From positions 62,001-126,000 of the forward strand of contig CACEKJ010000001.1 in assembly GCA_902560045.1 (NCBI GenBank): DNA of 64,000 nt. Direction: 5' to 3'. This document shows, in pieces, positions 13,668 through 63,358 of the stretch. How positions within the stretch are numbered: the first letter of the stretch is position 1; every line of letters starts with the position of its first letter. The notes beneath the pieces are model-generated. The model worked only from the letters and a program-made list of their open reading frames with translations, did not search any database and was not told the DNA's origin. This DNA is from an uncultured Bacteroidota bacterium (lineage in GTDB: Bacteria > Bacteroidota > Bacteroidia > Flavobacteriales > Flavobacteriaceae). The position numbers were made by a program, and so were the translations under genes.

Positions 13668-13737
13668 CACGCGTTTCTATTCAACCTCTTAGTTAAAGAA
13701 ACTTACGTTGGCTAGAACTAACTCAAAAAAATTTAAA

Positions 13738-14088
13738 ATGAGTTCATTAGTAAAGTTTGTAGAAGATCAACTAGTTCAAAACAAAGATCTCCCATCTTTT
13801 AGCTCTGGAGATACCATTACTGTTTATTACGAAATCAAGGAAGGTAGCAAAACTAGAACACAGTTTTTTAAGGGGGTAGTATTACAAAGAAGGGGTTCTG
13901 GTTCAACAGAAACCTTTACAATTAGAAAAATGTCTGGTTCTACAGGCGTTGAAAGAATTTTTCCTATTAATTCACCTTCACTTCAAAAAATTGAAGTCAA
14001 CAAAAGAGGTAAAGTAAGAAGAGCAAGAATATTTTATTTTAGAAATCTTACTGGTAAAAAAGCTAAAATCAAGGAAAAGAGAAGTTAA
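13738..14088 (+). CDS. rplS: 50S ribosomal protein L19 (ATG 13738 preferred over the TTG 13708 in the track)
   Basis: MSSLVKFVEDQ...GDTITVYYEIKEGSKTRTQFFKGVVLQRRG...RKMSGSTGVERIFPI. Confidence 0.95.
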   Translation: MSSLVKFVEDQLVQNKDLPSFSSGDTITVYYEIKEGSKTRTQFFKGVVLQRRGSGSTETFTIRKMSGSTGVERIFPINSPSLQKIEVNKRGKVRRARIFYFRNLTGKKAKIKEKRS

Positions 14089-14168
14089 TTTATACTTTTC
14101 AACAATTGTTAATATCGTTAGTTCACAACAGGTTAACATCTTTATTTTAAAATTTCATTGAATACTCA

Positions 14169-14671
14169 ACATTCTTTATAAATTAGTGTCAGGATTTGTT
14201 TGTAGTGGATCCCAAAAGGATCAACAAACACTTTAAAGTGATTACAAATTCAAAGAATGTTCTTTAAAATAGATTGCTTACAGAATTAAGGGGTAACCCA
14301 AAATTCGAAATCAGAGAGAAACTAAATTTTAAAATGTGTGCCTGCACAATTTTAGAAAGAAAGACTCACTCTCCCGAGTGGCCTAGCCCCAAAGGAGTCC
14401 CAAAAAGCCTAGCTTCGAGGGAGAAAGCCCAATAGGCGAATCAAGTAACCCATCGGGTGCTATCTGATCGAAAGAAAAGATAGAAGTAAGTAATCAGGAA
14501 TCAAAAAGGGAAAATCTCTTAGGAGACGAGTAACAAAAAGATTCCGACAATAGCGAAGATGTTTACCAGCAAAGCTCCTAGAGCTATGCAATTCGGAAAC
14601 GAAGGCAAACATATTCGATATTAACAGAGCCGCACCGTGTAGCAATACATAAGTGCGGCTTTCGTTTTTTA
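14169..14671 (+). ncRNA. Large structured RNA candidate, family not recognised
   Basis: Noncoding gap with many nested perfect stems, e.g. 14169-14178/14253-14262, 14284-14288+14291-14293/14298-14300+14303-14307 capped by GTAA, 14368-14372/14377-14381, 14498-14503/14541-14546, 14574-14578/14582-14586, 14629-14636/14654-14661, and a final T6 tract. Confidence 0.7.
14629..14671 (+). terminator. Intrinsic terminator at 3' end of the RNA candidate
   Basis: AGCCGCAC ... TGTA GCAA TACA ... GTGCGGCT followed by TTCGTTTTTT. Confidence 0.8.
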
Positions 14672-14713
14672 ATAACTATTTTACTTTTATTCTTTTATTT
14701 TATCCCTGTTTTT

Positions 14714-14721
14714 TATATTTG
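14714..14721 (+). promoter_or_regulatory. Bacteroidota -7 element TATATTTG upstream of icd
   Basis: Exact TAnnTTTG match 26 nt upstream of the icd ATG and downstream of the RNA terminator. Confidence 0.6.
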
Positions 14722-14747
14722 AATCACTAACTATTCAGAAGAAATTA

Positions 14748-16958
14748 ATGTCGAAGATTATTTATACCAAAACAGATGAAGCGCCAGCTTTAGCTACGGT
14801 TTCATTGTTACCAATTATTCAAGCTTTTACAAAGTCATCAGGAGTTGAATTTGAAACTAGAGACATCTCTTTGTCTTCAAGAATATTAGCAACATTTAAT
14901 GATTATTTGGGTAGTAAAATAAAATATGAAAATGATTTAGAATTTTTAAGTAAACTTGTAAAAGATCCAGACGCAAACATTATCAAACTACCCAATATAA
15001 GTGCTTCAATTCCACAGCTTAAAAAAGCAATAAGCGAATTGCAATCCAAAGGATTTAAAATTCCAAATTACCCTGACAAACCTGATGATGAAAATCAATT
15101 AATCATTAAATCTATATATGATAAAATTAAAGGTAGTGCAGTTAATCCAGTACTAAGAGAAGGCAATTCAGATCGTAGAGTTCCTGATGCAATTAAAAAT
15201 TATATAAAATCAAACCCTCATAAACTTGGGAAATGGAGTTCAAATTCTAAAACACATGTTTCTTCTATGAAAAATGGTGATTTTAAAAATAATGAAAAAT
15301 CTTTGATAAGTGACAGGCACGAACTACTGAATATTTATCACTACGACTCTGATAATAAGAAAACAATATTAAAAGAAAATATAACTATTCATAAAGGAGC
15401 CATCATTGACTGTAGTTTTATGAGTATTAAAAGCCTACAAAAATTTATTGAACAAGAAATTTTTGATTGTAAGTTCAAAAATTTGCTTTTTTCATTACAC
15501 TTAAAGGCCTCAATGATGAAGGTTAGTGACCCAATAATTTTTGGACATGTATTAAAAGTTTTTTTTAAAAGATTTATTGAAAAAAATGATGATCTATTAA
15601 AAGATTTAAATGTTAATTTAAATAGTGGTTTATCTAATTTATATGATAAAATAAATGGTCTTGAAAAAACTGTAAAAGAAAAATTATTTTCAGAGCTGGA
15701 AGACGAATTTAATATTGGACCTGAAGTTGCTATGGTAAATTCTGAAAACAACATAACAAACTTTCATATACCTAGTGATGTAATTATAGATGCTTCTATG
15801 CCAGCTATGATCAAAAGCTCTGGAAAAATGTGGAATAAAAATGGGGAATTAAAAGATACCAAAGCAGTTATTCCTGATAGCAGTTATGCTTCAATATATC
15901 AGGCCACTATTGATTTTTGTAAAAAACATGGTGAATTTGATCCTTCAACTATGGGTACAGTTCAAAATGTCGGATTGATGGCTAAAAAGGCAGAAGAATA
16001 TGGATCACATGACAAAACTTTTGAAATAAAAGAATCTGGTAAAGTATGTGTTGAAACAAAAGACGGAAAAATATTATTTACCCATGATGTGATGATCGGG
16101 GATATATGGAGAATGTGCATTGTAAGAAATGAAGCAATAAATGACTGGATAAATTTAGCTATAAAAAGAGCAGAGACAACAAAATACCCAACCGTCTTCT
16201 GGTTAGATCAGGAACGTTCTCATGATAAACAATTGATTAAAGTAGTAAAAAATGAACTTAAAAAATTAGATATCTCCTCCTTAGATATTCAAATTCTATC
16301 TCCTTATGAAGCTACAGTATTTACTTTAAAAAAGATTAAAAAAGGAGAAAATGTAATCTCTGTTTCTGGAAATGTTTTAAGAGATTATTTAACAGACTTG
16401 TTCCCGATATTAGAATTAGGAACTAGTGCAAAAATGTTATCAATAGTACCATTAATGAATGGAGGTAAATTATTTGAAACAGGAGCAGGCGGATCAGCCC
16501 CAAAACATGTACAACAATTAAACGACGAAAATCATTTAAGATGGGATTCACTTGGTGAATTTTTAGCTATTTCCGTAGCATTAGAAAACATAGGAATACA
16601 AAATTCAAATTCTAAAATTCTTTCTGAATGTCTTACAAATGCAATAGAAAAACTACTTAAAAATCATAAATCTCCATCGAGAAATGTTGGGGAAATTGAT
16701 AATCGAGGAAGTCATTTTTATTTGGCTTTATTTTGGGCTGAATTTTTATCAATTCAAAATAAAAACATTTCACTTAAAGAAGAATTTAGTGATCTTTATA
16801 AAGTTCTTTCAGAAAATGAAAAAGTGATAATTGATGAGATTAATGAAAATCAAGGAAATAAAATTGATTTAAACGGTTACTACAAAACCGATGATCATAA
16901 GACCAAAAATGTTATGAGACCATCAAAAACTTTAAATTTGATCATTGACAATCTATAA
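14748..16958 (+). CDS. icd: NADP-dependent isocitrate dehydrogenase, monomeric type
   Basis: MSKIIYTKTDEAPALATVSLLPIIQAF...ILREGNSDRR-like VLREGNSDRRVP...GAGGSAPKHVQQL; 736 aa. Confidence 0.97.
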   Translation: MSKIIYTKTDEAPALATVSLLPIIQAFTKSSGVEFETRDISLSSRILATFNDYLGSKIKYENDLEFLSKLVKDPDANIIKLPNISASIPQLKKAISELQSKGFKIPNYPDKPDDENQLIIKSIYDKIKGSAVNPVLREGNSDRRVPDAIKNYIKSNPHKLGKWSSNSKTHVSSMKNGDFKNNEKSLISDRHELLNIYHYDSDNKKTILKENITIHKGAIIDCSFMSIKSLQKFIEQEIFDCKFKNLLFSLHLKASMMKVSDPIIFGHVLKVFFKRFIEKNDDLLKDLNVNLNSGLSNLYDKINGLEKTVKEKLFSELEDEFNIGPEVAMVNSENNITNFHIPSDVIIDASMPAMIKSSGKMWNKNGELKDTKAVIPDSSYASIYQATIDFCKKHGEFDPSTMGTVQNVGLMAKKAEEYGSHDKTFEIKESGKVCVETKDGKILFTHDVMIGDIWRMCIVRNEAINDWINLAIKRAETTKYPTVFWLDQERSHDKQLIKVVKNELKKLDISSLDIQILSPYEATVFTLKKIKKGENVISVSGNVLRDYLTDLFPILELGTSAKMLSIVPLMNGGKLFETGAGGSAPKHVQQLNDENHLRWDSLGEFLAISVALENIGIQNSNSKILSECLTNAIEKLLKNHKSPSRNVGEIDNRGSHFYLALFWAEFLSIQNKNISLKEEFSDLYKVLSENEKVIIDEINENQGNKIDLNGYYKTDDHKTKNVMRPSKTLNLIIDNL

Positions 16959-61600: not shown

Positions 61601-63358
61601 TTGAAAGAATTAAAATATTTAAATAAATATTTATTAAAGTACAAAACGAATCTCCTATTAGGGTTCTTTATAATTATTATAGCAAGAATTTTATTATTAT
61701 TCACACCAGGTCTGATAAGAAATTCTGTTAATGTTATTGATGAGTTTAGAAAAGGAAATGTAACGGATATAGAAATCGTACAAACAGAACTCATTGAAAA
61801 TATTTTTTTAATCTTACTTGCTGCAATCTCAGCAGGTATATTTACTTTTTTAACCCGGCAAACAATTATTAATGTTTCAAGGTATGTGGAGTTTGATCTC
61901 AAAAATGAGATTTACAAGCAATATCAGAAACTTTCATTACGTTTTTATAAAAAAAATCAAACAGGGGATCTAATGAATAGAATTAGTGAGGATGTTTCAA
62001 GAGTTAGGATGTATGTTGGACCTGCAATAATGTACTCAACGAATACGATTACTTTGTTAATAATCACTTTTTTTTACATGTACAAACAATCTCCAGAATT
62101 GACTCTTTATACAGTTAGCCCACTACCAATTCTATCATTTACAATTTATAAATTAAGTAGAATAATAAATATTAAAAGTAAAATAGTTCAAGAATCTTTG
62201 TCAAATCTATCCTCCTTTTCACAAGAAATATTTACAGGAATTAAAATTGTAAAATCCTATTCAATGCAAGATTCAACTTCAGATAAATTTGAAGAAATAT
62301 CTCAATTAAATAAGGAAAACCAAGTGAGCCTTGCAAAAATGCAAGCGCTATTCTTTCCCTTAATGATATTATTAATAGGAGTCAGTAACATTTTTGTAAT
62401 TTATATTGGAGGTAAACAATATTTAGATGGATCTATTGAAAGTATAGGTATTATTGCTGAATTTATAATTTATGTTAATATGCTAACATGGCCAGTAGCA
62501 TCATTAGGCTGGATCAGTTCAATCGTTCAGCAGGCAGAAGCATCCCAAAAAAGAATCAATGAATTTTTGATAGAAAAATCAGAAATTAAAAACCTTAAAA
62601 ATGGCATAAAAAAAGTAAACGGAAAAATTGAGTTTAAAAATATATTTTTCGAATACTCTGATTCTAATGTTCAAGCGTTAAATGGAATAAGTTTTGTGAT
62701 AAAACCAAAGTCATCTCTAGGGATAATTGGGGTGACTGGTTCAGGAAAAACTACAGCATTAAAACTTATTACAAGATCCTACAATATAAGCTCAGGTGAA
62801 ATTCTTTTAGATGATCATTCCTTAAATAAAATTGACTTGATCCATTTGAGAGAAAATATAGGAGTGGTTCCTCAGGACTCTTTTCTTTTTTCTGACACAA
62901 TTATAAATAATATTAGATTTGGAAACGAAAAAGCAAGTAAAAAAGAAATTGAAAAAGTTTGTGAGATAGCTGGAATACATAAAGAAATTTTAAAATTTAA
63001 AGATCAATACAACACAATGCTAGGTGAAAGAGGTGTAAACTTAAGTGGTGGTCAAAAACAACGTGTCTGCATTGCCAGAGCTTTGGTAAAAAAACCTAAA
63101 ATATTAATTATGGATGACTGTCTTTCTGCACTAGATACAGAAACTGAGGAAAAAATCATAAAGTCCCTTAATGAGTATATTAAGGATACAACAACGATTA
63201 TTTCAAGTCACAGAATTTCATCGATTCAAAACTTGGACAAGATAATTGTTTTAAATGATGGTAAGATTATTCAAAAAGGGTCTCATGAAGAGTTAATTAA
63301 CGAAAATGGATACTATAAACAGTTATATTTCAAACAATTAACAGAAAAAGAAGATTAG
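61601..63358 (+). CDS. ABC transporter, fused permease/ATPase (MsbA-like; TTG start)
   Basis: GVTGSGKTTALKLITR, GVVPQDSFLFSDTI, LSGGQKQRVCIARAL. Confidence 0.94.
   Translation: MKELKYLNKYLLKYKTNLLLGFFIIIIARILLLFTPGLIRNSVNVIDEFRKGNVTDIEIVQTELIENIFLILLAAISAGIFTFLTRQTIINVSRYVEFDLKNEIYKQYQKLSLRFYKKNQTGDLMNRISEDVSRVRMYVGPAIMYSTNTITLLIITFFYMYKQSPELTLYTVSPLPILSFTIYKLSRIINIKSKIVQESLSNLSSFSQEIFTGIKIVKSYSMQDSTSDKFEEISQLNKENQVSLAKMQALFFPLMILLIGVSNIFVIYIGGKQYLDGSIESIGIIAEFIIYVNMLTWPVASLGWISSIVQQAEASQKRINEFLIEKSEIKNLKNGIKKVNGKIEFKNIFFEYSDSNVQALNGISFVIKPKSSLGIIGVTGSGKTTALKLITRSYNISSGEILLDDHSLNKIDLIHLRENIGVVPQDSFLFSDTIINNIRFGNEKASKKEIEKVCEIAGIHKEILKFKDQYNTMLGERGVNLSGGQKQRVCIARALVKKPKILIMDDCLSALDTETEEKIIKSLNEYIKDTTTIISSHRISSIQNLDKIIVLNDGKIIQKGSHEELINENGYYKQLYFKQLTEKED

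Follow-up and report, generated by a model that had tools for sequence, protein, structure and literature searches.

The gap between rplS (ending at 14088) and icd (starting at 14748) in an uncultured Flavobacteriaceae genome holds a structured non-coding RNA of ~480 nt on the + strand (~14190–14669), which is best regarded as a new family among large, structured bacterial ncRNAs without a known function. The family is so far known only from the Flavobacteriaceae, where it recurs across many genera with folds that covary over dozens. Its conserved fold, its strand, its boundaries as set by sequence signals and its independence of the neighbouring genes are established here. The window is the whole 64,000-nt stretch of DNA that was analysed (positions 62,001 to 126,000 of contig CACEKJ010000001.1, assembly GCA_902560045.1), and coordinates without a genome or locus label refer to it (Table 1).

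Table 1. Features of the RNA locus and its neighbours, in window coordinates
Feature	Position	Strand	Basis
rplS (L19), upstream neighbour	13738..14088	+	ORF and tblastn
Putative upstream regulatory element: palindrome CAACAATTGTTAATA, then GTT(A/C)A half-sites	14097..14140	.	~45–90 bp upstream of predicted start
Predicted promoter: -33 TTG (14158–14160), -7 TAAATTAG (14179–14186), 18-nt spacer	14158..14186	+	read from sequence
Non-coding RNA	14190..14669	+	Rfam-negative; fold z -6.4; covariation; strand from G-U vs A-C cells
5' hairpin domain, closed by GGATTTGT/CAAATTC	14192..14251	+	alignment A1 and consensus fold
boxA-like antitermination motif TGTTCTTTAAAA (family consensus AACGTTCTTTA)	14258..14269	+	sequence similarity
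D1, multi-branched, closed by long-range stem GATTGCTTAC/GTAAGTAATC (14272–14281/14486–14495)	14272..14495	+	
D1 apical hairpin AAAATGTGTGCCTGCACAATTTT	14331..14353	+	A1 and A2 alignments; invariant in window genus
D2 hairpin GGAATC/GATTCC around TCTC-TTAG-GAGA	14497..14545	+	helices 17–18 of A1, 15–17 of A2
D3, closed by AATAGCGA/TCGATATT around AGCTC-CTA-GAGCT hairpin	14549..14622	+	helices 19–21 of A1, 18–21 of A2
Intrinsic terminator AGAGCCGCAC/GTGCGGCTTT, GTA-GCAA-TAC top, T-run	14626..14670	+	helices 22–23 of A1, helix 22 of A2
-7 element TATATTTG of separate icd promoter, downstream of terminator	14714..14721	+	sequence
icd (monomeric isocitrate dehydrogenase), downstream neighbour	14748..16958	+	ORF and searches

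Conserved fold and strand

A sequence-only reading of the window had proposed a structured RNA of unassigned family in this gap, and the proposal is borne out in that no Rfam family matches and the stems are kept by covariation, with transcription still unproven. It had also seen no credible protein and a raised GC content; no ORF is conserved in the gap across the loci compared, and GC is 0.395 inside the RNA (14190–14662) versus 0.22 and 0.18 in the two flanks. No phage match was found. Folding of 14189–14662 gave -133.5 kcal/mol (z = -6.4 against dinucleotide shuffles), a value that none of 100 shuffles equalled. Folding energies of the two strands are similar (z -6.4 and -6.8), leaving the strand undecidable from energy alone; the sense strand is assigned as + from the excess of G-U cells (235) over A-C cells (39), a pattern that is reversed on the minus strand.

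Covariation was scored in one alignment of the window genus (A1) and another of 21 genera (A2, mean column identity 63%). The A2 consensus fold comprises 121 pairs, with 92.6% of cells paired and 69 pairs doubly changed, and no measure was reached by any of 500 shuffles; the A1 fold has 139 pairs, 40 of them doubly changed. As both folds were derived from the alignments on which they were scored, a hold-out test was also run, in which a fold from 10 random genera was scored on the other 11, in six repeats. The left-out genera had 85–92% of cells paired and 50–70 doubly changed pairs, against 38–47% paired (about 42%) in a control with the partners slid. Compensatory changes are thus present in genera that had no part in deriving the fold, and the RNA is a conserved structured RNA; homologues with such changes, on which the sequence-only reading had made its RNA call depend, are present in many genera. 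Additionally, in 43 of 54 loci the minimum-energy folds of single sequences, taken from boxA onward, placed the elements in the order boxA-D1-D2-D3-terminator, which none of 1080 shuffles did. These shuffles kept boxA and the terminator, the test requires a boxA match, and its size limits for the domains were chosen after the folds had been seen, a weakness from which the hold-out test is free.

Domain architecture

All of the stems listed from sequence alone exist, but their coordinates were one base too high: GATCC-CAAAA-GGATC, for example, lies at 14208–14222, while the TGTG/CACA hairpin has its true position at 14331–14353 and the final hairpin, AGCCGCAC/GTGCGGCT, at 14628–14635/14653–14660. 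The listed hairpins are real elements of a layout that proves to be one of consecutive domains, and the RNA is likewise real, with boundaries at ~14190–14669 and not at 14169–14671. A proposed outer 10-bp stem, AACATTCTTT/AAAGAATGTT (14168–14177/14252–14261), occurs in the DNA but has to be removed from the RNA. The 5' arm belongs to the promoter DNA: it precedes the predicted start, sits beside the -7 element and is not conserved in relatives. The 3' arm shares bases with the boxA-like motif. The long-range stem of D1, the upstream palindrome and boxA had all been missed.

The 5' hairpin domain is almost invariant within the window genus and has another sequence in other genera. D1 starts ~10 nt past the start of boxA and ranges from 63 to 260 nt across loci. 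Its closing stem (pairing 100% as helix 5 of A1 and 97% as helix 3 of A2) occupies the same place in other genera with other letters, AATTGTTTTTTGA/TCAAGAAAAACAATT. At the D1 apex, other genera retain a hairpin with a U-G-closed tetraloop (CACGU-GUAU-GCGUG), a possible protein or kissing contact. The U-G-closed tetraloop hairpin is common to the window genus (GU-GCCU-GC) and other genera (GU-GUAU-GC). In single-sequence folds D2 measures ~50 nt and D3 ~75–100 nt. The RNA as a whole spans 235–510 nt across loci, and the short forms (~235 nt) retain D2, D3 and the terminator together with a small D1 (~65 nt). Pairing in the terminator is 100% in both alignments, and its GCAA loop, correctly recognised from the sequence, is almost invariant in the genus.

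Predicted transcription signals

The Bacteroidetes-type promoter consensus is established, and a promoter of this type is predicted ahead of the RNA, with a start at ~14190 that has not been measured; its TAnnTT element is conserved across genera. The palindrome upstream was seen in 48 of the 54 loci having a gap of 400–1000 nt, and its distance to boxA is near-constant (~160 bp) in the window genus and most other genera. Across 17 Flavobacteriaceae genomes, the palindrome TTAACnnnnGTTAATA with GTTnATAA half-sites is almost unique per genome, and when 0–2 mismatches were allowed the best or only palindrome match was the rplS–icd locus in most of the 17. What binds it is unknown, a regulator and a DnaA-like protein being candidates only.

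The boxA-like motif, GTTC[TAG]TT, also occurs in 48 of 54 loci, and its form GTTCTTTA(A)CA resembles the motif of the rRNA leaders of the same genomes, which carry GTTCATTAACA and in one case GTTCTTTACA. In those rRNA operon leaders, as in the rplS–icd RNA, a motif of the form GTTC(A/T)TTA(A)CA stands shortly after the promoter; the difference is that the motif here precedes a non-ribosomal structured RNA. A boxA-antiterminated transcript is inferred from this similarity only, and NusB/S10 binding and Rho resistance are likewise inferences.

Distribution and genomic context

In most members of the window genus the gap is conserved at 74–99% identity, in single copy and in the order trmD-rplS-RNA-icd, and the closest named records come from marine single-cell or metagenome assemblies of Bacteroidetes/Flavobacteriaceae (AG-390-J14, AG-894-C03, MED649). 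In the family sample of 121 genomes, icd could be placed in 106, and the region preceding it was compared for 60. Most of these 60 loci have rplS followed by a gap of ~550–910 nt (~1090–1610 nt in eight), and the accepted covariance-model matches are single copy and adjoin rplS and/or icd. Carriers include the cultured relatives Bizionia argentinensis and Paucihalobacter ruber. The RNA is dispensable: the gap is only ~185–303 nt, without the RNA, in a Flavobacterium-like genus (g140; name inferred), in g142 and in one g141 genome, and the RNA is also missing at the locus in several other genomes, mostly small or reduced.

A model of the 3' part of the RNA, built without the window genus, found more than 12 held-out loci strongly and some window-genus loci weakly (21.9–24.3 bits), at the right place. 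With scores this low, homology to the family forms rests on synteny, element order and shared topology, and the two forms are treated as homologues on their agreement in position, palindrome, spacing, boxA and the order of the domains. Outside the Flavobacteriaceae, no family was confirmed to carry the RNA in an insensitive order-wide scan. The scan missed known carriers, and no more than 8 candidates per genome were scored in its first pass, so that absence there is weak evidence. A match in genome G168 (33 bits; 22.5 bits on re-search, terminator only) was not accepted as a homologue, and blastn matches in G047, G054 and G001 were chance, low-complexity or coding.

Other features of the neighbourhood concern rplS. 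Its mechanical ORF begins at a TTG (13708), and the ATG at 13738 is favoured by homology as the likelier start. The L19-Flavobacteria leader (RF03130) lies upstream of rplS in most relatives and was undetected in the window (13684–13737), from which the rplS terminator found in other genera is also missing. Flavo-1 RNA (RF01705) lies directly upstream of rplS in some genera (L041 1449–1592 (-), L043 368–512 (+), L048 507–588 (+)), and up to three structured RNAs are therefore clustered round rplS. Both known families share the neighbourhood of the rplS–icd RNA in relatives, but both are upstream of rplS and outside the gap.

Discussion

The best explanation of the locus is an autonomous, boxA-antiterminated, trans-acting structural RNA gene (RNP or scaffold), an account we consider probable in the absence of transcript data, with transcription, antitermination and trans action all inferred. 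RNA polymerase would start at the predicted promoter, under the control of the upstream palindromic element. The boxA-like sequence, ~70 nt into the transcript, would let NusB/S10 load as on rRNA operons, and the untranslated transcript may in this way escape Rho, both steps being read from the sequence. The RNA would then fold into the 5' hairpin domain, an expandable D1, hairpin D2, composite hairpin D3 and the terminator, a fold demonstrated by covariation, and is inferred to be a stable, trans-acting RNA, most likely a scaffold or ribonucleoprotein. That some free-living relatives lack the RNA suggests a physiological and not an essential role. It is possible, although we hold the idea only tentatively, that the RNA belongs to a new class of large RNA machines in bacteria, combining rRNA-type antitermination, a fixed D2-D3-terminator frame with an expandable domain, and a function (RNP, oligomeric assembly or catalysis, all inferred) unlike that of any described RNA.

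Apical segments conserved within the genus, such as the GUGUGCCUGCAC hairpin, could belong to an antisense-type regulator that base-pairs in trans and is embedded in a large folded carrier, and shorter regulatory sRNAs such as Rfp18 occur in F. psychrophilum (PMC9723704). This is unlikely for an RNA of 235–510 nt in which, between genera, most letters diverge while the pairs are kept, unlike a seed-bearing sRNA; the same retention of the fold points to a scaffold or RNP role. Further, Hfq (PF17209) was found in none of 41 genomes while control searches gave matches, which makes Hfq-dependent antisense pairing unlikely.

In the window the RNA ends in a terminator and stops ~80 nt short of icd, and in most genera icd follows it. 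Such a position would suit a cis-acting icd leader or attenuator whose terminator is read through under some conditions, switching on icd. The arrangement in other genomes leaves this reading only a slim chance. In seven genera (L036, L038, L057, L061, L062, L068 and L077) a 190-codon gene, presumably a pentapeptide-repeat gene from its repeat pattern, stands between the RNA and icd; L070 has the RNA ahead of icd without rplS; and in an inversion in G130 (L216, G130:C1:1510400-1512800) the RNA and palindrome stay beside rplS, convergent on icd from the icd 3' side. From these cases the RNA is concluded to be an independent gene, and both an icd leader and an rplS tail were rejected on the intervening gene (seven genera) and the convergent orientation (one genome). 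The separate icd promoter past the terminator, also recognised in the sequence-only reading, is conserved in relatives as TATATT(T/C)G, and no alternative antiterminator pairing was seen in the conserved fold, although this was not tested systematically.

Sequence that changes this fast between genera (mean column identity 63%) might conceal a known class (RNase P RNA, tmRNA, 6S, group I/II intron or OLE/ROOL/GOLLD) in a form too divergent for covariance models to recognise, which we judge very unlikely. At gathering cut-offs, cmscan of the whole window returned two tRNAs only and no Rfam 15 family in the rplS–icd gap, and no Rfam match fell inside the RNA in 40 homologous loci from relatives either, the outcome that the sequence-only reading had left to this check. 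At E<=10, 14000–14800 gave only sub-cut-off chance matches, the lowest-E sub-threshold match being Ocean-VII (13.9 bits versus a gathering score of 53.5). tmRNA and RNase P RNA, whose signatures that reading could not find, have copies on other contigs of the same genome: bacterial type A RNase P RNA at C6:40711-41007 (190.9 bits) and tmRNA on contig C15 (130.3 bits), with no RNase P RNA at the rplS–icd locus and no tmRNA found in the window by ARAGORN. 6S-Flavo RNA also lies elsewhere (C6:59328-59434, 103.4 bits) and not at the locus, and OLE, ROOL and GOLLD had no Rfam covariance model match in the window or the 40 loci. To our knowledge the topology is unlike that of any of the classes named, and no description of an RNA in the rplS–icd gap was found in the literature.

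The hardest reading to credit, a replication origin or other DNA-level element with the palindromes as DnaA-like boxes and the RNA incidental, draws on the near-uniqueness of the palindrome/half-site cluster per genome and on several complete records that begin near the locus, and has against it a GC skew that flips near 2.2 Mb and 0.6 Mb and not at the locus (a rough estimate from 20 chunks of G156) and covariation that falls in the transcribed part and not in the palindrome.

OLE RNA has partner proteins and a kink-turn element. Like the rplS–icd RNA it is long, structured, limited in taxonomic range, conserved as a fold and of long unclear biochemical function, but it belongs to another phylum (Bacillota, ~600 nt; PMC9723947, PMC12054373) and has no Rfam match here. 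ROOL and GOLLD, which form RNA-only homo-oligomers (PMC12286853), are also large ornate bacterial RNAs; again there is no Rfam match, and the RNA here is a single copy at a chromosomal housekeeping locus. The raiA-motif RNA, or ModT (PMC11706538), is similarly a conserved structured bacterial ncRNA that acts as its own transcript, but differs in phyla and sequence and has no Rfam match, and the neighbours here are rplS and icd. The resemblance to all of these is one of size and style, not homology. The icd motif, a Pseudomonas cis-regulatory candidate (PMC2864571), shares a name and proximity to icd with the rplS–icd RNA but comes from a different phylum.

As the RNA is absent at the locus in the Flavobacterium-like genus, it may have escaped Flavobacterium transcriptome work; neither rplS nor isocitrate dehydrogenase is named in the main text of PMC9723704, its supplement aside. 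The carriers are Flavobacteriaceae, common in the surface ocean, and include streamlined single-cell genomes as well as cultured relatives, and the availability of cultured carriers (B. argentinensis and P. ruber) makes deletion and pull-down tests possible. Large structured bacterial RNAs whose function is unknown are few, and such RNAs have led to surprising biology.
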